23,124 bases of DNA from a virus, in IMG/VR virus record IMGVR_UViG_3300005095_000145, positions 1 to 23,124 of that record; one strand, 5' to 3'. The position numbers and the translations under genes were made by a program. Positions 9,928 to 22,875 of the stretch are shown piece by piece (positions within the stretch are counted from its first letter, which is position 1; each line of letters begins with the position of its first letter). The notes below the pieces were generated by a model. The model was not told the DNA's origin and did no database searches. It saw nothing but the letters and a program-made list of their open reading frames with translations.

Positions 9928-10302
9928 TTACAGCCTTTCTAAGTAATTTTTTTGAGTAAGTTTTGAAAATAATCTATCTATATGAGGTTCAAAAGTCTGT
10001 CCTATAACTATCTTTTTAGGAAACATAGCAAATAGATGATCTAAAAAAGTTTTAAAAAGATATCTATATTTAGGTAAGAGATAGATTTGAATTAAAAAAA
10101 TATATCTATCTGAGTGGGGTTTATAAGTAGCAAAGCCTATTAATTTAGATTTAAATTTAACTATTACTGTTTTTAAAGTAGGAGGTATATAAAAAGCTAT
10201 GTATCCTTTTGTAGAAAGATAGTAGTCAGCTACCAGGGGTATGATAGGATTATATCTATAAGGTAATGGTAATTCTATGAGTTTTAGTTGTTGAGACATC
10301 AT
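9928..10302 (-). CDS. 124-aa protein of unknown function, first gene of the virion operon
   Basis: Not recognised with certainty. The mixed alpha/beta pattern, with KTVIVKFKSKLIGFATYKPH, YIFLIQIYLLPKYRYLFKTF and KIVIGQTFEPHIDRLF, vaguely resembles small GNAT-fold phage proteins (beta strand, loop, beta strand, then a helix), but no acetyl-CoA-binding RxxGxG/A motif is visible. It opens the leftward operon, about 60 nt downstream of an extended -10 promoter. The ATGATG start is preceded on the - strand by AATAAGGTTAT, a weak AAGG ribosome binding site. Confidence 0.6.
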   Translation of the reverse strand: MMSQQLKLIELPLPYRYNPIIPLVADYYLSTKGYIAFYIPPTLKTVIVKFKSKLIGFATYKPHSDRYIFLIQIYLLPKYRYLFKTFLDHLFAMFPKKIVIGQTFEPHIDRLFSKLTQKNYLERL

Positions 10303-10380: not shown

Positions 10381-10520
10381 TGAAGGAAATATTAGGAAGG
10401 AGTTGGAGATTAGTTGAAGTTATTAGGAATTTGAGGAAATTTGAAGGAAATTTGAGGAATCTGAGGAGATTTGAGGGAATTTGAGGAGATTTGGGGAAAT
10501 TTGAGGAGATTTGAGGAAAT
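10381..10520 (+). repeat. Decamer repeat array, consensus TTGAGGAGAT
   Basis: From 10431 to 10520 the sequence is nine copies of a 10-nt unit (TTGAGGAAAT, TTGAGGAGAT, TTGGGGAAAT and so on), with one 11-nt and one 9-nt unit that cancel out. More degenerate units extend left to 10381. A 10-nt period puts every copy on the same face of the helix, and the strand is purine-rich. It sits in the divergent intergenic region, so operator or origin functions are possible. There is no gene on either strand; the ORF at 10579-10776 is low-complexity. Confidence 0.85.
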
Positions 10521-10680
10521 TAATTAGAAATCTTCGAAATATTATGATACTCCGAAATCTTGGTAATATTGGAAATTATTGAAATCTGGGAAGTGTAGGG
10601 AATGGGATATATCCCCCGCTTACCCTCCCCTACCCTTCCTTGCAACCCCTTACATCTCCTCAAATTTCCCCAAATTTCCT
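10484..10680. repeat. 27-bp inverted repeat around the divergent control region
   Basis: Bases 10484-10510 match the reverse complement of 10654-10680 at 26 of 27 positions, so the decamer block reappears in opposite orientation. Between the arms is a perfect 12-nt palindrome (10604-10615, GGGATATATCCC) and a GC-rich pyrimidine run. The remaining part of this 624-nt gap (10681-10926) holds two TTGACACAT copies (10727, 10801) and two copies of CATATTATCTAATAT (10691, 10807). The second TTGACA (10801-10806), with TATATT at 10825-10830 (18-nt spacing), could be an additional rightward promoter. Confidence 0.8.
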
Positions 10681-10857
10681 AAAATTTTCTCATATTATCT
10701 AATATTTTGCTACATTTCCTCGAATTTTGACACATTTACCCACACTTTTTACCCAACTTCTCCTAATATTCTTTAATATTCATACCAAATCAACCAAATC
10801 TTGACACATATTATCTAATATACTTATATTTTTTAATATACTGCCTAAACACAAAAG

Positions 10858-10892
10858 ATTTAATTGAATTCTAAGCTAACCTTAGATATTAT
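10858..10892 (+). promoter_or_regulatory. Promoter of hairpin gene A (TCTAAG-type)
   Basis: The -35 is TTGAAT (10864-10869), then a 17-nt spacer and -10 TATTAT (10887-10892). The spacer is itself an inverted repeat, TCTAAG-N5-CTTAGA (10870-10886). The 18-nt block 10858-10875 matches the corresponding blocks of the gene B and gene C promoters at 16 of 18 positions each. The predicted leader is about 28 nt and ends with AGGAGG at 10915-10920. Confidence 0.7.
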
Positions 10893-10926
10893 CTATATAT
10901 TTATAAATTTTAATAGGAGGTGCTAA

Positions 10927-12288
10927 ATGAATACTAAAACTAATACTAAATTAGAATTTAAGAGCACTTACTATGAAATAATAGTAAGTGCTCTAAGAGA
11001 AATAAATGAAAAAGACTACAACAGATTTTGTAGTCTCCCAATAGGAGGCTACAAAAGATTTAAAATATTAGAGGCAAATTTGCCTCTAATAGAGGCAAAT
11101 ATAAATAAATATATTGTAATTAAAAAGGAGGTAGTTGAGGCTTTTGCAGCCTATAACTACCTCAAAAAATTACCTCTACAAAGCTTAGACTTTGTAGAGT
11201 ATACTTTAGAATGTAGCAAAAGGGGGATAATTTCCCCTTTTGCTACTAAGAAAGATTTAGCAGTTTGGGACAAATTGTCCCAAACTGCTAATACATATAC
11301 TCTAAAAACTAAGGACGTGTCTTTTGAGCACGTCCTTAGTTTTTTAATAGAATATTTAGAAAGAGCCCCTAAGTGGGCTCTTTCTATTTTAAACAGTCTC
11401 CCTAAAGATTGGAGGGAGACGCACGACCTCTTAGTAGCTACTAAAAGGCTACTAAGAGGTCTTTATAATTTAAAAGAAGAGCATAAAGATATAAAATATG
11501 CTCTTCTTTTAAAAATTTATAAAAAAGGTCTACACAAAATAATTGTAGACCTTTTAAAATTAAGGAAAAGGGGAGACTTTACAAAAGTAAAGTCTCCTTA
11601 TTTAAAAAAGTTTTTAAAAGATCCGCACGCTTTTATAGAGCGTGGGGATCTTGTAAAAATTTGGTTAGAAGAAAAATTAGAGGGGATAGAGATCCCCTCT
11701 AATTTTGCAAAATCCATTCCTCTCTACTTAAATAATCTAAGTAGAGAGGATATTATAGAGATTGTGGAGTATGCTAATAAACATACTCCACAAAAATTTA
11801 AACTAAATTTACCAACCCTAAGAGTGGGTAGATACACTCTTAGGGTTGTGGATGAAGATGAATTCGAGAACTTGGCAGCCGGTTATATAACCGAATGCTG
11901 CCAAGTCCTCGAATATGCGGGGGAAAGCTGTATGAAAAAAGCCTATAAATCCCCGGATGCGGGGATTTTAGGCTTTTTTGAAAATGATAAGCTCATCGCC
12001 CAAAGTTACATTTGGGTGGATGAAGAGAATAAACTATTAGTATTAGATAGCATAGAGTGTGTAGCTAAAGTTAGCTACAGCTCTATAGCTAATCTAATAC
12101 TAAGATTAGATAAGGAGATATTTCCTTATCTAAATTTAAATATAGCCATAGGTGCTACATCATATGGCATTACGCCAAAAATAATAGAAAAATTAGGGGA
12201 TGCCGTTAAATACGAGATGTCCCCTAATCAAAGATATAACCCCGCGTCTTATACAGACGCGGATAAAGTTTGGGTAATAGAGAATTAA
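10927..12288 (+). CDS. Hairpin gene A: 453-aa protein encoded by tandem inverted repeats
   Basis: Function unknown. The first 300 residues are helical, Lys/Leu-rich and without recognisable motifs. The last 150 look like a folded domain: GRYTLRVVD at about 302, TECCQVLEYAGESC with C324, C325 and C335, then AGILGFF, AQSYIWVD at 358-365 and LVLDSIE at 371-377. I have seen a similar CC..G..C / AQS.hW / hDSIE pattern in uncharacterised phage proteins, but cannot name the family; PcfJ-like is a guess. The reading frame is intact despite the extreme secondary structure of the DNA, and codon use matches the phage, so it is translated or was until recently. The ATG follows AGGAGGTGCTAA (AGGAGG at 10915-10920, 6-nt spacing). 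The stop TAA sits in the centre of a perfect 30-nt palindrome. It is convergent with hairpin gene B. Confidence 0.85.
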   Translation: MNTKTNTKLEFKSTYYEIIVSALREINEKDYNRFCSLPIGGYKRFKILEANLPLIEANINKYIVIKKEVVEAFAAYNYLKKLPLQSLDFVEYTLECSKRGIISPFATKKDLAVWDKLSQTANTYTLKTKDVSFEHVLSFLIEYLERAPKWALSILNSLPKDWRETHDLLVATKRLLRGLYNLKEEHKDIKYALLLKIYKKGLHKIIVDLLKLRKRGDFTKVKSPYLKKFLKDPHAFIERGDLVKIWLEEKLEGIEIPSNFAKSIPLYLNNLSREDIIEIVEYANKHTPQKFKLNLPTLRVGRYTLRVVDEDEFENLAAGYITECCQVLEYAGESCMKKAYKSPDAGILGFFENDKLIAQSYIWVDEENKLLVLDSIECVAKVSYSSIANLILRLDKEIFPYLNLNIAIGATSYGITPKIIEKLGDAVKYEMSPNQRYNPASYTDADKVWVIEN

Positions 12289-12301
12289 TTCTCTATTACC
12301 C
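10961..12301 (+). repeat. Tandem hairpin array filling gene A
   Basis: Consecutive inverted repeats read by eye (outer limits; stem bp): 10961-10994 (14), 11026-11056 (13, one G-U), 11067-11090 (12, perfect), 11128-11163 (9+5), 11174-11199 (10), 11213-11246 (13), 11257-11291 (17), 11304-11344 (16), 11357-11386 (12), 11396-11420 (7), 11425-11461 (14), 11469-11513 (17), 11523-11555 (12), 11572-11597 (11), 11618-11652 (13, one mismatch), 11673-11706 (15), 11718-11750 (13), 11762-11793 (12), 11813-11848 (14), 11862-11914 (7+10+7), 11935-11979 (11+8), 11999-12016 (6), 12037-12103 (12+3+6+9), 12106-12133 (11), 12145-12168 (6), 12192-12228 (9), 12242-12262 (8), 12272-12301 (15). Roughly half of all bases are paired. 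Two groups contain a third copy of the arm (11014-11021; 11091-11100), allowing alternative pairing. Confidence 0.95.
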
Positions 12302-12357
12302 TTTTTATTTTTCCTATATATCATATTTTTTAATATCACATATAGGAAAAATAAAAA
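12272..12357. terminator. Terminator of gene A plus a shared bidirectional hairpin
   Basis: A perfect 30-nt palindrome (arms 12272-12286 and 12287-12301) carries the gene A stop codon and is followed by a T-rich run (12302-12312): an intrinsic terminator overlapping the CDS. A second stem, 12302-12319 with 12340-12357, is 18 bp and perfect. Its 20-nt loop contains a smaller hairpin (12323-12327 with 12332-12336). The second stem lies between the two convergent genes and can work in both directions. Confidence 0.8.
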
Positions 12358-12385
12358 AGCCTAAGTTCTAAACTTAGGCTTTTTT
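12353..12385 (-). terminator. Intrinsic terminator overlapping the end of gene B
   Basis: A 15-bp perfect stem (12353-12367 with 12371-12385) with a 3-nt loop contains the gene B stop codon (12361-12363) in one arm. On the - strand it ends in a run of six T. Six bases are shared with the 18-bp stem on the gene A side, so the two hairpins compete. Confidence 0.8.
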
Positions 12386-12831
12386 GAGATAATGTTTTTT
12401 AAGGACTTGCAGCAGCAGCAAGTCCCATCGCTACAAGGAACTTTTAGTTCCTTGTAGTTTTTTTGATAAAACTTTCTAAGGAACAAGAGTTCCTTAGAAA
12501 GATAATTTAGAGCCTCTAATCCATAGAGGCTCTCATTTAAAGAAGAACTCTTGCCCCATGGCAAGAATCCTATTTTTATTTCACTTTTATCAAGGGCAAT
12601 TTTTAATTGCCCTTGATTGTTATTATAGGCACTACCAATTGGTAGTGCCTCTTTAATATATAATTCACTTAAGAGCTTTATTAAAGCTCTTAAGTATTTT
12701 ATTTTATAGAGGACATCTAAAATGCCCTCTACTTCTAATAATTTCTCCTTTTTAGGAAGAAAGAGGTAAATCTCCCTCTTCCCTCCTAAAATCTCTTCTT
12801 TTAAAAAATTTAAAATCTCTACTCTTTCCAT
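12361..12831 (-). CDS. Hairpin gene B: 156-aa protein encoded by tandem inverted repeats
   Basis: Not recognised. The start is taken as ATG 12829-12831, eight bases after AGGAGG; the in-frame GTG nine bases upstream lies inside the ribosome binding site and cannot be the start. The protein is helical and Leu/Lys/Glu-rich (IKYLRALIKLLSELYIKEA; ALNYLSKELLFLRKFY). Near the C-terminus is the Cys cluster VPCSDGTCCCCKSL (C133, C138-C141), produced by a TGC run lying in the loop and arm of a hairpin; metal binding is possible but unproven. It is divergent from gene C, sharing a back-to-back promoter, and convergent with gene A, sharing terminator sequence. The same ribosome binding site (AGGAGGTGC) and promoter design tie it to A and C. 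Confidence 0.75.
   Translation of the reverse strand: MERVEILNFLKEEILGGKREIYLFLPKKEKLLEVEGILDVLYKIKYLRALIKLLSELYIKEALPIGSAYNNNQGQLKIALDKSEIKIGFLPWGKSSSLNESLYGLEALNYLSKELLFLRKFYQKNYKELKVPCSDGTCCCCKSLKNIISKKPKFRT
12403..12815 (-). repeat. Tandem hairpin array filling gene B
   Basis: Stems, in + coordinates (bp): 12403-12425 (8), 12431-12457 (12), 12472-12501 (13), 12509-12533 (10), 12549-12566 (7), 12589-12617 (13), 12627-12650 (12, perfect palindrome), 12667-12695 (14), 12707-12731 (10), 12751-12790 (16), 12799-12815 (7). Loops are 0-8 nt. The 12707 stem has one, and the 12751 stem two, positions that are A-C on the + strand but G-U in the - strand mRNA. These stems are therefore fully paired only in the gene B transcript. 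Confidence 0.93.
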
Positions 12832-12865
12832 TTTTTGCACCTCCTTAAAATTTAATTTATATTAG

Positions 12866-12900
12866 ATTATATCTATTATTTTCTTAGAATTTAATTAAAC
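12866..12900 (-). promoter_or_regulatory. Promoter of hairpin gene B (TCTAAG-type)
   Basis: On the - strand: -35 TTAAAT (12889-12894), TCTAAG at the start of a 17-nt spacer, and -10 TATAAT (12866-12871). The 18-nt block (12883-12900) matches the gene A block at 16 of 18 positions. The -35 abuts the gene C -35, so the two promoters are back to back within a dyad (TTCTTAGA at 12881-12888, TCTAAGAA at 12901-12908, with TTAATTAA near the centre). The leader is about 28 nt. Confidence 0.7.
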
Positions 12901-12923
12901 TCTAAGAATCTATCTACTATAAT
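12889..12923 (+). promoter_or_regulatory. Promoter of hairpin gene C (TCTAAG-type)
   Basis: The -35 is TTAAAC (12895-12900), followed directly by TCTAAG (12901-12906), 11 nt, and a perfect -10 TATAAT (12918-12923). The 18-nt block 12889-12906 matches that of gene A at 16 of 18 positions. The leader is about 25 nt and contains ATAGGAGGTGCA (12941-12952) just before the ATG. Confidence 0.72.
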
Positions 12924-12954
12924 ATAAATGTAATTAAATTATAGGAGGTGCACG

Positions 12955-13350
12955 ATGAATAAATTAATTTTAAATCTTAAAAGTCCTATCTCAATAAATA
13001 GGACTCAAAAATTATTGGAGCAAGTTTGCTCCAATATAGGTAAAAAATGGGCTATATGGTATAGCCCATCTAAGAATTTCTATTATGTCAAGATAAACGG
13101 GATATATAATCCCGTTTATCTTAATGATCTATTAAGGTTAGCTTCCTGGCTTAACCAGGAAGCTATCGCATACCAAATGGTATGCGATATCCACCATGCC
13201 AAAGGCATGGTGGGGTTAAAAGCGTGGAGATGGGAATTTATCCCATCTCTATTTACTAAGAAAGCTTCTAAAAAAAGAGGATTCGTCCTATTATCCACAC
13301 ATAAGACGAATCCTCCTAAAATAGATTATTCTATTATGCTCACCACCTAA
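12955..13350 (+). CDS. Hairpin gene C: 131-aa protein encoded by tandem inverted repeats
   Basis: Not recognised. It has an N-terminal beta/alpha-like pattern (LILNLKSPISINRTQKLLEQV, then KKWAIWYSPSKNFYYVKINGIY), a helical middle (LNDLLRLASWLNQEAIAYQMV), a CDIHHAKGM segment and a Trp-rich KAWRWEF. It lacks the charged helices of A and B. The ATG is 6 nt after AGGAGG (12943-12948), and the stop (13348-13350) lies in the loop of the final hairpin. The reading frame is open through ten hairpins, and the RBS and promoter are shared with A and B, so it is very likely translated. The antisense ORF at 13116-13298 is a by-product of the palindromes. Confidence 0.75.
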   Translation: MNKLILNLKSPISINRTQKLLEQVCSNIGKKWAIWYSPSKNFYYVKINGIYNPVYLNDLLRLASWLNQEAIAYQMVCDIHHAKGMVGLKAWRWEFIPSLFTKKASKKRGFVLLSTHKTNPPKIDYSIMLTT

Positions 13351-13364
13351 GCAGTGGTGGGCAT
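12982..13364 (+). repeat. Tandem hairpin array filling gene C
   Basis: Stems (bp): 12982-13005 (8), 13013-13036 (11), 13047-13069 (10), 13090-13122 (14), 13139-13165 (11), 13165-13188 (11), 13191-13213 (10), 13227-13249 (9), 13277-13315 (11), 13336-13364 (11, with one U-G pair in the mRNA). A small 5-bp stem lies at 13321-13334. Loops are mostly 2-6 nt, and neighbouring stems are almost contiguous between 13139 and 13213. Confidence 0.94.
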
Positions 13365-13417
13365 TAACTATCTTCTTTTTATTATCCTCCTCCATTCCCT
13401 CCAATTCCCTCTATTTC

Positions 13418-13595
13418 TTAATATAGGATATAAATTATTCATAATCTGAAACTTTTTAAAATTCCTTCATAATCGTTCAAAATTGCCTCTAAAATCCATT
13501 TTCTTATAACTACTGCTACCTTACCCTTAGTAAACCTCAAAAACCCTCAAATTTGGCTATTTATTAATATAGGATAGGAATTATTCATAATCTGA
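13418..13595 (+). repeat. Pair of 32-nt direct repeats
   Basis: 13418-13449 and 13564-13595 are identical at 30 of 32 positions (TTAATATAGGATA...TTATTCATAATCTGA). Just after the first copy (about 13461-13500) is a degenerate copy of the arm of the large hairpin at 15537-15668 (CCTTCATAATCG...GCCTCTAAAAT). Confidence 0.8.
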
Positions 13596-13609
13596 GAAAT
13601 AGCTATTGC

Positions 13610-13746
13610 TTTAGTTAGGTTTTGATGGAATCTGATGGAAATCTTTTGAATTTAGTTAGGTTTTGATGGAATCTGATGGAAATCTTTTGAATTTAGTTGG
13701 GTTTTGATGGAATCTGATGGAAATCTTTTGAATTTAGTTGGGTTTT
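13610..13746 (+). repeat. 41-bp tandem repeat, 3.3 copies
   Basis: Units at 13610-13650, 13651-13691 and 13692-13732, plus a 14-nt partial unit to 13746. They differ mainly at one site (TTAGTTAGG versus TTAGTTGGG). Each unit contains TGATGGAATCTGATGGAAAT, itself a short internal duplication. No role is evident; near-identity suggests recent expansion. Confidence 0.92.
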
Positions 13747-14158
13747 AGTCAGAAGTTTCCTGGATTCTGATAATAGTGTGTAAATTCGTAACAAATTTAA
13801 AATTATGTAGGGTGTCTTAAAATGATTTTAGTGAAATAAAAAATCTTATAATTTAATATAAAAATTTTTAATTTTCAATTATAAGAAAAACTTATAATTA
13901 AATCTTCGAATTACGACACCCAGCAGTATCCCTCTCAAGTCACTGATGTCCCATATATTGGTAGTTTATATTAAATATAAAAAATTTTAATTCTGTATTA
14001 TAAGAAAAACTTATAATTCTCAAGAGCAGTTAATCCCATTTTTTCATTATTTTATGGAAGAGTTAGATAACACAGTCCTGCTGTGATTGACCGGTGTGCT
14101 GAAAATTGCGGGAAAGTATAGATAAGATCTTGATGGTTAGGTTAAAGATCGAAAATTT

Positions 14159-14302
14159 TTGTATACCCCCACCGAAAATAGGAAGGGAGAGGCATCTTTT
14201 GCAATGGCTGGAAGATGCGATGAATTGAGAGGTGGAAAATGGATTCGGAAAATTTACTGGTGAAATTTTAACATACCCCATTGAAAATTTGGGGGTATAC
14301 AA
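14159..14302. repeat. 144-nt segment bounded by 12-bp inverted repeats (TTGTATACCCCC)
   Basis: 14159-14170 is the exact reverse complement of 14291-14302. Inside is a 7-bp hairpin (14192-14198 with 14212-14218). Just upstream is CACAG-TCCTG-CTGTG (14071-14085). Related GTATACCCC sequence recurs near 15190. It could be a folded RNA or a small mobile or regulatory element. The long - strand ORF here has no ribosome binding site and unnatural composition. Confidence 0.6.
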
Positions 14303-14369
14303 TTGTATAGGTTACCTTTTTTAGCGCTATCAACACGATTGAGTTATACAGACTTAACGTTAATGATTC

Positions 14370-14657
14370 GTTAACCTTTCGTTAATGGATGGTCAAAAAA
14401 TTTAGAAATGTTAGATAAATCCTGGTTAATCTTTTGTGAACATTTGTTCATAAGAATTCGAAATTTTTAGAAGACTTTTCTAAAGTTGAAAAATTTTTAA
14501 GTCAAACAGACTCAGAAGTATAGGGGTTTTAAAAAAAATGTGTGAAAAATGTGTGAAAAATATGTCAAAAATTCCGGCTAAATCACCTAAAAAATACTCC
14601 GATTTATACTCAAAGTTCGATGTAGTAGGCTCGGAAAAAGGTTAACGAAAGGTTAAC
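14370..14657. repeat. 16-bp inverted repeat GTTAACCTTTCGTTAA, with a third copy at 15205
   Basis: 14370-14385 is the exact reverse complement of 14642-14657, and a variant (ATTAACCTTTTGTTAACC) occurs at 15205-15222. Each site has two GTTAA half-sites 11 nt apart, spaced about one helical turn, as expected for a protein binding site. The interval also holds a small tandem repeat of AATGTGTGAA (about 14538-14561). Confidence 0.7.
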
Positions 14658-14691
14658 AGAGGTTGGGGGTAGGCGATACTTTAGCGTGTTG

Positions 14692-14812
14692 GGTCCTGCA
14701 AAAAAATCTTAGAATATTCAAATTTTTTAAAAGATTAATGAAAAGTTAATGAGATGTGTAAAAAATGTGATTTAGAGGGGTGTCTTAGAAACCCCCATTT
14801 TCGTGCAGGACC
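14692..14812 (+). ncRNA. Possible structured RNA closed by a 9-bp GC-rich stem
   Basis: GGTCCTGCA (14692-14700) pairs exactly with TGCAGGACC (14804-14812). Inside is a 5-bp GGGGT/ACCCC hairpin (14777-14781 with 14791-14795). It is one of the few GC-rich stems in an AT-rich noncoding region. No promoter or terminator is clear, so RNA status is speculative. Confidence 0.3.
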
Positions 14813-15410
14813 TGGTCAATTATAACCCCCCCGCACTATAAGAAAAACTTATAATTGTAGAGACTCGAAGAATTGGGAGGTGGAGAAGAAGCATTGTTAG
14901 GAGTGCTAAAAAGTTGTTTAAAACTAAGAAGGGGGTTTTTTGGAGGTTGTATAGTCTAAGAGGCTCTTAGGGTATACTATTTTGCTATTGAAAATGTATC
15001 AGGACCCCTATATAGCTATGTGCTGGTGTGTCTCAGAAGAAAATATTTATTACTGTTTACCTATTTGAAATATAAAAGTCAAAAAAATCAATATTTTGAA
15101 AATAATCCCATATATTGGGATAAAGAATTTCAATAAAACCATAAAATCATATTATTAACTTTTTAAAAATCTTAAAATTTAATATATTTGTATACCCCTA
15201 TGTTATTAACCTTTTGTTAACCAAACTGATATACCTTTTTAAAAACGACTTGTATAAAGAAATTTTTTAGCACCCTCGAACAAAAAAATGGGGTTATACA
15301 AACTTCAACTAACTTCGAATTAGATCAACAAATTTCAAAAATTCTTCTCCTTCCCCCAATTCAACAAATTTCAAACAAATCCCCACGATTCAAACCTCTG
15401 ACTACAACAA

Positions 15411-16045
15411 GCAAATAGCTCTAACCACAAGCAAATAGCTTTAATTCTAAGCAAATAACCAACTACAACAAGTGAATAGCTCTACAACAAGCAAATAGCC
15501 AACTACAACAAACAAATCTGTAATGTTATAGTTATTTTTATAATCCCTTCATAATCGCACAAAAACCCCTCTAAAATCAATTTTTATTTCTTACTAATAC
15601 CTACATAGCACTAAAGGATAAAAATTAATTTTAGAGGCAATTCTGTGCGATTATGAAGGGATTATAAATAAATATCCAAACCTCTGACTACAACAAGCAA
15701 ATAGCCTTAATTCTAAGCAAATAGCTCTAACCACAAGCAAATAGCTTTAATTCTAAGCAAATAGCCAACTACAACAAGCAAATAGCTCTAATTCTAAGCA
15801 GATAGTTAAGTTTCCATACAACTCTAAGCAGATAACTCTAATTACAAGCAAATAGTTACAACTCTGACTACAACAAATGAATAGTTACAACTCTGAGCAA
15901 ATAGCTTTAACTACAACTTCATTTATATTTTAATATTTCTCCAACATTGACTTTCATTTTATATTATCATAATATATTATCAATATTAACTTTAGAGAGA
16001 CATTAGATGGAGACTGAGTGAACCTCTGACTACAACAAGCAAATA
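15411..16045 (+). repeat. Iteron-like array, 20-nt period, core GCAAATAGC
   Basis: Core copies (GCAAATAGC and close variants) begin at 15411, 15431, 15451, 15472, 15491 and 15511 (block 1), then at 15697, 15717, 15737, 15757, 15778, 15798, 15828, 15848, about 15877 and 15897 (block 2), with a lone copy at 16039. Linkers alternate between types such as CTCTAACCACAA, TTTAATTCTAA and CAACTACAACAA. CTCTGACTACAACAA starts several groups. The 20-21 nt spacing is two helical turns, typical of iterons bound by a replication initiator. Block 1 and block 2 flank the large hairpin at 15537-15668. Confidence 0.88.
15537..15668. repeat. Large hairpin (25 + 19 bp arms) between the two iteron blocks
   Basis: 15537-15561 pairs perfectly with 15644-15668 (25 bp). 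After a 6-nt internal loop, 15568-15586 pairs with 15619-15637 (18 of 19 bp). The terminal loop is 32 nt. A third, degenerate copy of the arm is at 13461-13500. Placed between iteron arrays, it is a candidate origin structure or cruciform. Confidence 0.9.
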
Positions 16046-16102
16046 GCCATACAAATTCATAATGTTATAGTTATTCTTATATCCTCTTCATTATATCCTC
16101 TT

Positions 16103-16210
16103 CATCATATAGCTCCTGTTAAATTTTTATTATTGACATATTAATTATTTTTATTTTTTGTGATATAATTTTAATGTCAATAATAAAAATTTAACAGGAG
16201 CTATATGATG
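16103..16210. promoter_or_regulatory. Perfect 37-bp inverted repeat enclosing the KilA-N gene promoter
   Basis: 16103-16139 is the exact reverse complement of 16174-16210, with a 34-nt centre. The centre contains an extended -10, TGATATAAT (16161-16169), pointing to the gene. The right arm contains the start of the transcript, the ribosome binding site (CAGGAG, 16195-16200) and both candidate start codons. The inner ends of both arms are TTGACAT/ATGTCAA. TTGACA at 16133-16138 is 25 nt from the -10, too far to be its -35, and is better read as an operator half-site. A transcript entering from the left would fold the RBS into a 37-bp stem, whereas one started in the centre would not. Confidence 0.9.
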
Positions 16211-16825
16211 AAAACAAATCAAACAATGACGATCGATTTTAGTTTAGGGCAGTTACAAGTAAAGCATAAAACTGCAATGATTGAATTAGACGGATTTATT
16301 GAATTAGTAAATAAATATAGATTAAAAAGTGGATTAAAACAAATTCATTTCAGAGATTTAATGAAAAGAGATAGTATTCAGGAATTTATAACATTATTAG
16401 GAGATAAATGTTATATACCTCGTAAAGGTAGGGCAAAAGGATATCTTTCTCTTGAACTTGCAATTAGAATAGCAATAGATATGAGCCCGCATTTTGCAAA
16501 AGAGGTAATTCAGATATTCATCGAACATAAGATACTTCACTTGAGAGATATCTCTGGAGATAATTACATAGAATTAAATGCTATGTTGGCTCTAAAAGCA
16601 GAAGAAGTATTAGGAAAACCAGCACATAAGGGTCACTATATAAACATAGCTAAGAAGATAAAAGAAAGAGTATCTAAAGAATTAGGAGAAGTAGATAATT
16701 GGAATGTAGCTACTTCTGCACAATTAGCAGAGAGAACAAGGATAGAAGAAGCTTTAACAACTATGCTAAAAGCAGGAGTAGTCCATGACTGGGATCACTT
16801 AAAAGAATTAGTAGATAAGGTATAA
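16205..16825 (+). CDS. KilA-N domain protein (phage regulator/antirepressor type)
   Basis: A 206-aa protein. Residues about 22-112 match the KilA-N DNA-binding domain: IELDGFIELVNKYR, FRDLMKRDSIQEFI, then YIPRKGRAKGYLSLELAIRIAIDMSPHF, the typical KGR.KG..LA..lA...SP.F core. The C-terminal part (140-206) is helical and charged and not recognised. KilA-N proteins of phages act as DNA-binding regulators or antirepressors. The start is ATGATG; the second ATG (16208) is better spaced (7 nt) from CAGGAG, so either may be used. It precedes the primase/helicase gene by 33 nt and is probably co-transcribed with it. The long inverted repeat at its promoter could be its own operator. Confidence 0.82.
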   Translation: MMKTNQTMTIDFSLGQLQVKHKTAMIELDGFIELVNKYRLKSGLKQIHFRDLMKRDSIQEFITLLGDKCYIPRKGRAKGYLSLELAIRIAIDMSPHFAKEVIQIFIEHKILHLRDISGDNYIELNAMLALKAEEVLGKPAHKGHYINIAKKIKERVSKELGEVDNWNVATSAQLAERTRIEEALTTMLKAGVVHDWDHLKELVDKV

Positions 16826-21763: not shown

Positions 21764-21935
21764 TTTTTAAGATTTTATCTGTTATAATTACAACAGATAT
21801 CGGGAATTTCCCGATGAGATCTTTAAAAATCCAATGTTAGCTCTGAGATGAGGGGAGATTTTAATGCACCTCCTATATTTCCATAACCTCCTCCTATCTC
21901 CCCTCTTCTCAGGGCTAACCTGAAAATCTTAGAAA
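21764..21935 (+). ncRNA. Structured RNA element/leader with anti-Shine-Dalgarno-like loop
   Basis: A closed multi-hairpin fold is visible. The outer stem pairs 21764-21776 with 21923-21935 (13 bp, one G-U). Inside are hairpins 21776-21783 with 21792-21799 (8 bp), 21799-21806 with 21808-21815 (8 bp) and 21836-21858 with 21897-21919 (23 positions: one G-U, one mismatch). The last has a 38-nt, largely unpaired loop with TGCACCTCCTAT (21865-21876) and ACCTCCTCCTAT. The first is the exact 12-nt complement of the gene C ribosome binding site and matches genes A and B over 11 and 10 nt. TATAAT at 21783-21788 could start a shorter RNA. It may act in cis on the next gene or in trans. Confidence 0.6.
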
Positions 21936-21954: not shown

Positions 21955-22656
21955 ATGACAACTTTTACTCTCAACAGACCAATCAAAACTCCTATGGGAG
22001 AGTTGATGTATGTATTTATTAAAGGGGAGGGTAGGAATACTGCAATGGCTGGACAGCCTGAGAGAATGCAGTATGTAGCCTCTATTAGATTTAAGGAAGG
22101 ATCTCCAGAGCATAAAGAATTTGAAGCTCAACTCTGGGATCTTTGGAGAGAATATCAAGAAAAAACTGGTTTCAAAGGAAAGCCAGCTAAAACTGATAAA
22201 GGTGAGTATATGATAGGACTCAAGAAGGAATATATTTCTGAAGGATCAGGAGAGATAGATCCTGAGACAGGGCAGGTTAGAAAAATTCCTTCTGGTTATG
22301 TATTAGCTAATTTCAAAACTAATACTACTTGGGCTGATGGTAATCCTAAAGTAGTAAAGGTTTTTGATTTTAAAGGTAGAGATATTACTGAAGCCTATCA
22401 AAATGTTGATTGGGCTATTGGTAATGGAACAATAGGTAAAATTTATGGAGTAGCTTCTGCTAATAATGCAGGAGGAAAACATAAAATTAGTCTTTATCTT
22501 TCTGGAGTTCAAATAATTAAGAATCTGCAAAAATATTCTCCAGATGGAATAGCTGATGTAGATCAATATGATGATGGTGAAGAGATAGATTTCAATGAAT
22601 CTACATCAGATGCTGAGAATGTAGAAAAAGTTATTGATGCCAGAGACCTTCTATAG
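21955..22656 (+). CDS. Phage ssDNA-binding-type protein
   Basis: A 233-aa protein with the build of phage ssDNA-binding proteins of the T7 gp2.5/DUF2815 kind: an N-terminal beta-rich region (GELMYVFIKGEGR; QYVASIRFKEGS), a central GYVLANFKTNTTW...KVVKVFDFKGRDI part, a KIYGVASANNAGGKHKISLYLSGVQII strand set, and a strongly acidic tail (DVDQYDDGEEIDFNESTSDAEN) of the kind that binds replication partners. It should coat ssDNA during replication and recombination. The acidic tail is followed by a short VEKVIDARDLL end, so the acidic stretch is not strictly terminal. AAGGAT precedes the ATG. The last three codons and the stop are inside the first hairpin of a repeat array. Confidence 0.7.
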   Translation: MTTFTLNRPIKTPMGELMYVFIKGEGRNTAMAGQPERMQYVASIRFKEGSPEHKEFEAQLWDLWREYQEKTGFKGKPAKTDKGEYMIGLKKEYISEGSGEIDPETGQVRKIPSGYVLANFKTNTTWADGNPKVVKVFDFKGRDITEAYQNVDWAIGNGTIGKIYGVASANNAGGKHKISLYLSGVQIIKNLQKYSPDGIADVDQYDDGEEIDFNESTSDAENVEKVIDARDLL

Positions 22657-22875
22657 GTCTCTGAGCTTTAGCTAAGAAGACCTTCTATAGGTCTCTGAGC
22701 TTTAGCTAAGAAGACCTTCTATAGGTCTCTGAGCTTTAGCTAAGAAGACTTCTATAGTCTGAGCTTTAGCTAAGAAGACCTTCTATAGGTCTCTGAGCTT
22801 TAGCTAAGAAGACTTCTATAGGTCTCTGAGCTTTAGCTAAGAAGACTTCTATAGGTCTCTGAGCTTTAGCTAAAA
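22641..22875 (+). repeat. Seven-unit hairpin array after the ssDNA-binding gene
   Basis: Units begin at 22644, 22678, 22712, 22746, 22776, 22810 and 22843 (34, 34, 34, 30, 34, 33 and about 32 nt). Each has AGAGACC...GGTCTCT (or a shortened AGACT form) as one hairpin, and an imperfect CTGAGCT-TT-AGCTAAG as a second. The first unit spans the stop codon of the preceding gene and looks like its transcription terminator stem (8 bp, 22641-22648 with 22656-22663). The array therefore seems to be an amplified terminator-like hairpin. No T-run follows any unit, so strong intrinsic termination is doubtful. Confidence 0.92.

Follow-up and report, generated by a model that had tools for sequence, protein, structure and literature searches.

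Coding palindromes have been described in the mitochondria of hairworms (Nematomorpha), where 110 repeats with stems of at least 15 bp (mean, 43 bp; up to 142 bp) are spread over many genes of four genomes of about 15 kb and sometimes overlap (Mikhailov et al. 2019, PMC6649704). The authors of that work lean toward palindrome conversion, citing the perfection of the stems (PMC6649704), and template switching is known to make and to repair perfect stems in one event (PMC8794818). Pervasive folding of long coding RNA, termed genome-scale ordered RNA structure (GORS), has been linked to escape from RNA sensing (PMC3950689). Here we describe three genes, designated A, B, and C, of an uncultured podovirus-like phage (IMG/VR record IMGVR_UViG_3300005095_000145), the coding sequences of which are filled with tandem hairpins. 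The window analyzed is the entire virus record of 23,124 bases, and this single metagenomic contig is the only one from which such hairpin-coded genes are known.

RESULTS

The open reading frames (ORFs) and terminators of A, B, and C together hold 48 tandem, nonoverlapping hairpins with about 592 pairs, when rare mismatches are allowed. An earlier note, made from the letters alone, had counted about 28, 12, and 10 inverted repeats in the three genes and some 375 bp of stem in gene A. The tandem chains were borne out and the numbers came down slightly on recounting, to 27, 12, and 9 hairpins with 351, 141, and 100 bp, respectively. The stems are shorter than the 30 bp that had been claimed. They measure 6 to 17 bp, the longest perfect stem within a gene being 17 bp, and a longer pairing (two arms of 26 nt, 92% matched) occurs only between A and B. 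Loops are mostly of the 0 to 11 nt first given, with a few that reach 17 to 19 nt, and "almost without gaps" proved too strong a description, as gaps of up to 91 nt separate strong stems. Any two hairpins share at most 8 nt, and they are therefore not a repeat family. The region has 27 terminator-like sites, versus 3.5 expected, an excess that the hairpins themselves produce.

If stems are required to be perfect, nonoverlapping, and 7 bp or longer, with loops no longer than 20 nt, they cover 44.1% of A, 42.9% of B, and 42.9% of C. The corresponding cover was 3.1 to 3.9% in dinucleotide shuffles and 4.6 to 5.8% in synonymous-codon shuffles (20 of each per gene), which puts the stem density of gene A about 30 standard deviations above the nulls. 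The 12 other genes of the window lie at 2.8 to 14.9%; the earlier note had seen nothing comparable in nrdB, terL, or the primase gene. Perfect stems with 10 bp or more number 17, 6, and 6, or 29 in all, versus 3 in the rest of the window; 300 codon shuffles gave means of 0.29, 0.03, and 0.16 for A, B, and C, with a maximum of 2. The codon shuffles thus reject protein sequence or composition alone as the cause, and the background level of the other genes rejects hairpin density as a general property of the phage.

The earlier note had proposed folding scores as a check on whether the three genes differ from their neighbors, and the difference is large. Mean z-scores for 60-nt folding of the sense strand, relative to codon shuffles, were -18.6, -12.9, and -9.4 for A, B, and C, while the other genes tested ranged from +1.3 to -3.2. 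The antisense strands gave -15.6, -9.8, and -9.7. The predicted folding energy of 60-nt segments averages -17 to -20 kcal/mol, hairpins are spaced about 45 nt apart, and the sense strands of all three genes fold slightly better than the antisense strands.

The placement of the hairpins mirrors the predicted transcripts. Stems of at least 8 bp cover 0% of the 177 nt comprising the leader and start of gene A, 10% of the 183 nt in which the leaders of B and C stand back to back, and 3% of the sequence downstream of C, as against 46%, 38%, and 44% of A, B, and C, respectively, when counted from codon 11 through the terminator. The gap between A and B is an exception, with 61% cover over 51 nt, because each gene is followed by the same trailer and the two copies meet tail to tail; together they form the 26-nt arm pair mentioned above. 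In all three genes the first hairpin stands about 27 to 40 nt after the start codon (the first strong stem of chain A is at ORF nucleotide 35), and a terminator-like hairpin containing the stop codon closes the gene, serving in A and C as the last hairpin of the chain. The chain therefore tracks the transcripts in both orientations and not a block of DNA, and this match to transcript limits favors a role at the RNA level.

The three genes also share a leader. A 17-nt element, TTTAATTNAANTCTAAG, which has no other mismatch-free copy in the window, is followed after about 37 to 39 nt by the Shine-Dalgarno (SD) string AGGAGGTGC. That string is found at the three hairpin genes and in one stray copy at 21866, where there is neither leader nor ORF. 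The leaders of B and C overlap head to head, making a near-palindrome at 12881-12908. The shared leader argues that A, B, and C belong to one regulon or cassette family; it was not found in the viral and genome collections searched. The sigma-70-like promoter candidate upstream of A is the best of 36 in the region, but 30.7 would be expected by chance, and it is weak evidence.

Gene A belongs to a rare protein family, and the protein it encodes appears to be real. The last third is 30% identical over 157 amino acids to the C terminus of ORF68L from the Microcystis phage MaMV-DC (E = 8e-6). Further relatives are proteins in five IMG/VR contigs and a Chloroflexi metagenome-assembled genome, with a weak relative on an Alkaliphilus plasmid (E = 8e-3). 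The family motif is T-x-CCQ-x4-AGE[ST]C ... AQS[WY]xW, and A preserves each of the 20 positions that do not vary in an alignment of six rows. Counted by codon fractions, 8.7 of these 20 positions lie in stems, which is what chance expects at the 41% stem cover of the domain, and they occur in left and right stem arms. CCQ, AQS, W363, Y384, and D444 are encoded in or across stems, and the alignment has no gaps. Because invariant residues lie within stems, the hairpins of A are evidently translated, neither skipped by the ribosome nor inserted, and the conservation supports the proposal that protein and fold have both been kept. Ribosomal bypassing was rejected for gene A on these grounds. Palindromic insertion elements were likewise rejected, since the hairpins are mutually unrelated and there are no insertions relative to the other family members. 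Nor is the hairpin chain a trait of the family, as the relatives in MaMV-DC and in loci L004-L006, L093, and L095-L098 have none.

Neither Pfam nor NCBIfam has a match to gene A. Few sequences went into a structure model of the protein, the mean pLDDT of which is 50; of the 50 PDB matches listed for it, almost all were GNAT-type acetyltransferases (E values starting at 1e-4), and we take a GNAT-like C-terminal domain only as a lead. Relatives of genes B and C were not found in any library searched. They are probably coding too, as judged by their open frames, ribosome binding sites, and shared leader. No similarity was detected between proteins A and B or between B and C, and none of the three matched a defense family.

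In gene A the demands of code and stem can be seen to collide. Stem cover is 56% over the unconserved N-terminal two-thirds and 27 to 36% over the conserved domain, reaching its lowest value, 27%, in the most conserved part. Such a drop is the expected pattern where two demands compete. From protein sequences, an upper bound was derived at which ordinary proteins could hold stems over 31 to 48% of their genes by codon choice alone, so a hairpin layout is possible without wrecking the protein. The density observed in A is about 78% of the bound set by its own protein sequence. Possible stems of at least 12 bp number 15.5 per kb in A and 4.7 after residue shuffling, indicating that the amino acid sequence of A has also been bent toward stems. 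Stems thus shape both the codon choice and the amino acid sequence of A. The third-to-third codon register, which is the most constraining, is used by 10 of 40 stems, compared with 45% in the null.

The stems are nearly always perfect. Thirty-seven of the 48 hairpins are flawless, and the roughly 592 pairs include 13 mismatches (six G.T, three A.C, two T.T, one G.G, and one A.G). Perfection is close to binary, with three single-mismatch stems versus 29 perfect ones. The excess of G.U over A.C mismatches, 6 to 3, is not significant. The trinucleotide ACA is enriched in loops.

The arrangement is rare. Among 153 other loci totaling 2.1 Mb, a scan that covered most of some 37 genomes of portal relatives, a single stretch exceeded a stem cover of 0.21 in 500 bp. 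This stretch (locus L146, 9701-10600; peak, 0.41) was rejected as a second hairpin-coded case, because it is an AT-rich, mostly noncoding gap a short way upstream of a terminase gene. Within it, positions 9957-10281 of the relative contig 3300023439_000002 combine a GC-rich hairpin of 22 bp with a perfect palindrome of 15 bp and a duplication of 88 nt, and resemble an origin or a terminator. As far as the searches reached, neither the relatives nor the collections yielded the gene A family or the shared leader, and no hairpin-coded relative was found. Hairpin density is mildly raised, at 3 to 4% versus about 1%, in MaMV-like cyanophage loci (L003, L004-L006, and L097), which carry AAGGGGCC palindromes located at least partly between ORFs.

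The features of the cassette are collected in Table 1. The cassette spans 2.4 kb, with late structural genes on one side and replication and terminase genes on the other; within it, no replication or transfer gene was recognized. The portal protein encoded in the window is of the P22 type. Its identity reaches 57% with portals of other IMG/VR contigs and is 44 to 48% with those of named phages, among them Vibrio phage VPMS1 and Pseudoalteromonas phage PH1. Searches for known RNA families and tRNAs found none.

TABLE 1 Positions of genes, leaders, hairpin chains, and terminators in the cassette
Feature	Position	Strand	Description
Candidate promoter of A	10801..10830	+	Sigma-70-like (TTGACA-18-TATATT), upstream of A; consensus scan, 11/12 matches
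Gene A 5' leader	10859..10923	+	TTTAATTGAATTCTAAG, about 39 nt, AGGAGGTGC Shine-Dalgarno
Gene A	10927..12288	+	453 aa, hairpin-coded; possible GNAT-like C-terminal domain of a rare phage protein family
Hairpin chain A	10961..12301	+	27 hairpins, stems up to 17 bp
Conserved domain of A	11809..12279	+	Codons 295-451, lowered stem density
Terminator hairpin A	12272..12301	+	15-bp perfect palindrome with stop codon, then CTTTTTATTTTT
A/B tail-to-tail gap	12302..12357		Same 3' trailer, TTTTTATTTTTCCTATAT, in both genes
Hairpin chain B	12353..12791	-	12 hairpins
Terminator hairpin B	12353..12385	-	15-bp stem with stop codon
Gene B	12361..12831	-	156 aa from ATG after SD; 159 aa from upstream GTG
Gene B 5' leader	12837..12899	-	TTTAATTAAATTCTAAG ... 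AGGAGGTGC
Gene C 5' leader	12890..12951	+	TTTAATTAAACTCTAAG ... AGGAGGTGC
Gene C	12955..13350	+	131 aa
Hairpin chain C	12982..13365	+	9 hairpins; first at ORF nt 28
Terminator-like hairpin C	13336-13364	+	Stop codon in loop

Next to the cassette, on the gene A side, an ORF of 124 amino acids (9928-10302, minus strand) resembles by eye a second small acetyltransferase-type protein, though without a family match. Upstream of the gene A promoter candidate, segments 10428-10516 and 10648-10736 form an 89-nt imperfect inverted repeat (72%) composed of 10-nt purine-rich repeats (GAAATTTGAG) and their complement. Beyond gene C lies a mostly noncoding gap of 2.8 kb (13366-16200) in which repeats of several kinds occur: direct repeats of 41 nt in three copies at 13610-13746, AAGCAAATAGC repeats at 15388-16051, and a 51-nt inverted repeat (90%) at 15537-15668. 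A 48-nt inverted repeat (94%) at 16101-16212 directly precedes a KilA-N-like gene. The gap is a possible replication origin or regulatory region. Farther away, between two genes at 22645-22875, a tandem repeat of about 36 nt (AGACCTTCTATAGGTCTCTGAGCTTTAGCTAAGA) occurs in six to seven copies, each capable of forming a hairpin.

DISCUSSION

The reading that we favor, to which we assign a probability of roughly 0.4, is that A, B, and C are coregulated accessory genes and that selection has shaped their mRNAs into chains of hairpins. It is favored because the chains respect transcript limits, because the genes share their regulation, because their coding parts are near saturation, and because stems become sparser over the conserved domain of A. 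The mRNA would fold piece by piece during transcription into a nearly continuous chain of short hairpins, one that sets in shortly after the start codon, leaves the start site open, and extends to the terminator. A message folded in this way would present little single-stranded target to ribonucleases or base-pairing guides, the candidate threats being decay enzymes, infection-triggered RNases, RNA-targeting CRISPR, and antisense RNA. The message would still be read, as the ribosome would unwind the stems; stems of this kind do not keep ribosomes from reading (PMC8861025). The perfect stems may be supplied and mended by template switching in replication, with selection on the mRNA then retaining them in these three genes only. 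Protection would be the most likely benefit of the chain. The more specific proposal of a dedicated, leader-marked regulon of armored genes, the messages of which outlast or escape RNA-cutting or RNA-guided host defense while staying translatable, is tentative, and on balance we are inclined to doubt it.

Several observations weigh against selection on the mRNA. Only about 1% of stem pairs (6 in some 592) are G.U, as are 5% of predicted pairs, versus 12 to 14% in control genes, and selection acting on RNA only should tolerate more of them. No nuclease motif is missing from the unpaired stretches that would name an enzyme. We infer that the transcripts are made and translated, the latter least firmly for B and C, and the case comes from one contig, with no second hairpin-coded example found. 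The suggestion of the earlier note that the mRNA is itself functional fares unevenly: the match to transcript limits favors a role for the RNA, but the scarcity of G.U and the near-binary perfection speak against simple RNA selection. The functions that the note gave as examples, namely a nuclease-resistant transcript, a dsRNA decoy, a translation timer, and a packaged RNA, are no more than candidates.

Those same features are what the main rival explanation would predict. Template switching, in the form of quasi-palindrome correction, could write and repair perfect inverted repeats by mutation alone, with the proteins tolerating them and the hairpins having no function. The 37 flawless hairpins, the few mismatches and G.U pairs, and the 3 single-mismatch versus 29 perfect stems all suit such a process, as do an antisense structure almost as strong as the sense structure, the ability of template switching to create and mend a perfect stem at once (PMC8794818), and the equal perfection and register bias seen in hairworm genes (PMC6649704). 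Mutation should ignore gene limits, however, yet stems are scarce in the leaders and in the DNA downstream, and the coding parts of all three genes approach saturation. The other genes of the replicon are normal and the stems are strictly tandem. Mutation would need either a process specific to this locus or a cassette that had recently arrived as a whole from another replicon given to such events. We consider this explanation a serious possibility, although at less than even odds.

Hairpins or cruciforms might instead act in single-stranded or supercoiled DNA, in replication, transfer, packaging, or protection from nucleases. Both strands fold almost equally, and Watson-Crick perfection suits DNA, but the stems respect the bounds of the transcripts and pass over the untranslated leaders, the cassette has no recognized replication or transfer gene, and unrelated hairpin sequences offer no common binding site; a function of the DNA is therefore improbable. 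Translation control, by which the chain would slow ribosomes and yield a low or delayed product or a paced cotranslational folding, could draw on the strong predicted folding, the close spacing of hairpins, and the open initiation region. One or two stems would be enough for that purpose, though, which makes the saturation of three unrelated genes excessive, and the density ignores domain limits except for the drop where the protein is conserved. We judge this explanation similarly improbable. That the hairpins are an artefact, Rickettsia-like inserted palindromic elements, or byp-like hairpins skipped by the ribosome is suggested by the single metagenomic contig, and it is by far the least probable of the alternatives, refuted to the extent that sequence can decide. 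The hairpins share almost no sequence, and the alignment of A runs without gaps through conserved residues in and across stems. An assembly artefact in particular appears very unlikely, because three ORFs stay open and a conserved domain continues through the stems.

Under either cause, selection or mutation, three genes stand near the self-pairing limit of coding sequence, and one of them demonstrably keeps its conserved motifs. If the mRNA has been selected, DNA phages would have a strategy of RNA protection, and a practical rule for stable messages would follow; an armored-gene regulon, if real, would encode genes in a way that has no earlier description. If mutation is the cause, the phage would offer a compact, testable bacterial system for the palindrome writing suspected in hairworm mitochondria, a question open since 2019.

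The earlier note knew of no described phage system with this layout, and a limited literature search, with most subscription journals and preprints outside it, likewise gave no phage precedent for hairpin-chain genes. Coding palindromes as such do have a precedent in hairworm mitochondria (PMC6649704). The ORF68L family of MaMV-DC shares the invariant motifs of the gene A C terminus, but in ordinary coding sequence. Rickettsia palindromic elements and the byp elements of Magnusiomyces mitochondria are also hairpins inside ORFs. However, they are repeated inserts, and byps are skipped by the ribosome, whereas the phage hairpins are unrelated to one another, are not inserted, and encode conserved residues. 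Hairpins made by template switching have been described for RNA genes, not as continuous chains in protein genes (PMC8794818). The resemblance to GORS lies in a sense RNA that folds far below order-preserving nulls. However, GORS is a feature of RNA genomes, and here the candidates are mRNAs of three genes of a DNA phage, with strictly tandem and nearly G.U-free stems; GORS is no more than a functional analogue. The hairworm mitochondria come closest, as they too have perfect inverted repeats over conserved coding sequence, conserved residues in both arms (in the phage, for gene A), almost no imperfect stems, and an underused third-to-third register (PMC6649704). The phage differs in having stems of 6 to 17 bp in place of long ones, set in strict tandem about 45 nt apart and near saturation, and in confining them to three coregulated genes bounded by leader and terminator, not scattering them over many genes. 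The coding palindromes of nematomorph mitochondria are thus the nearest precedent, of which the phage genes are a variant and not a member.

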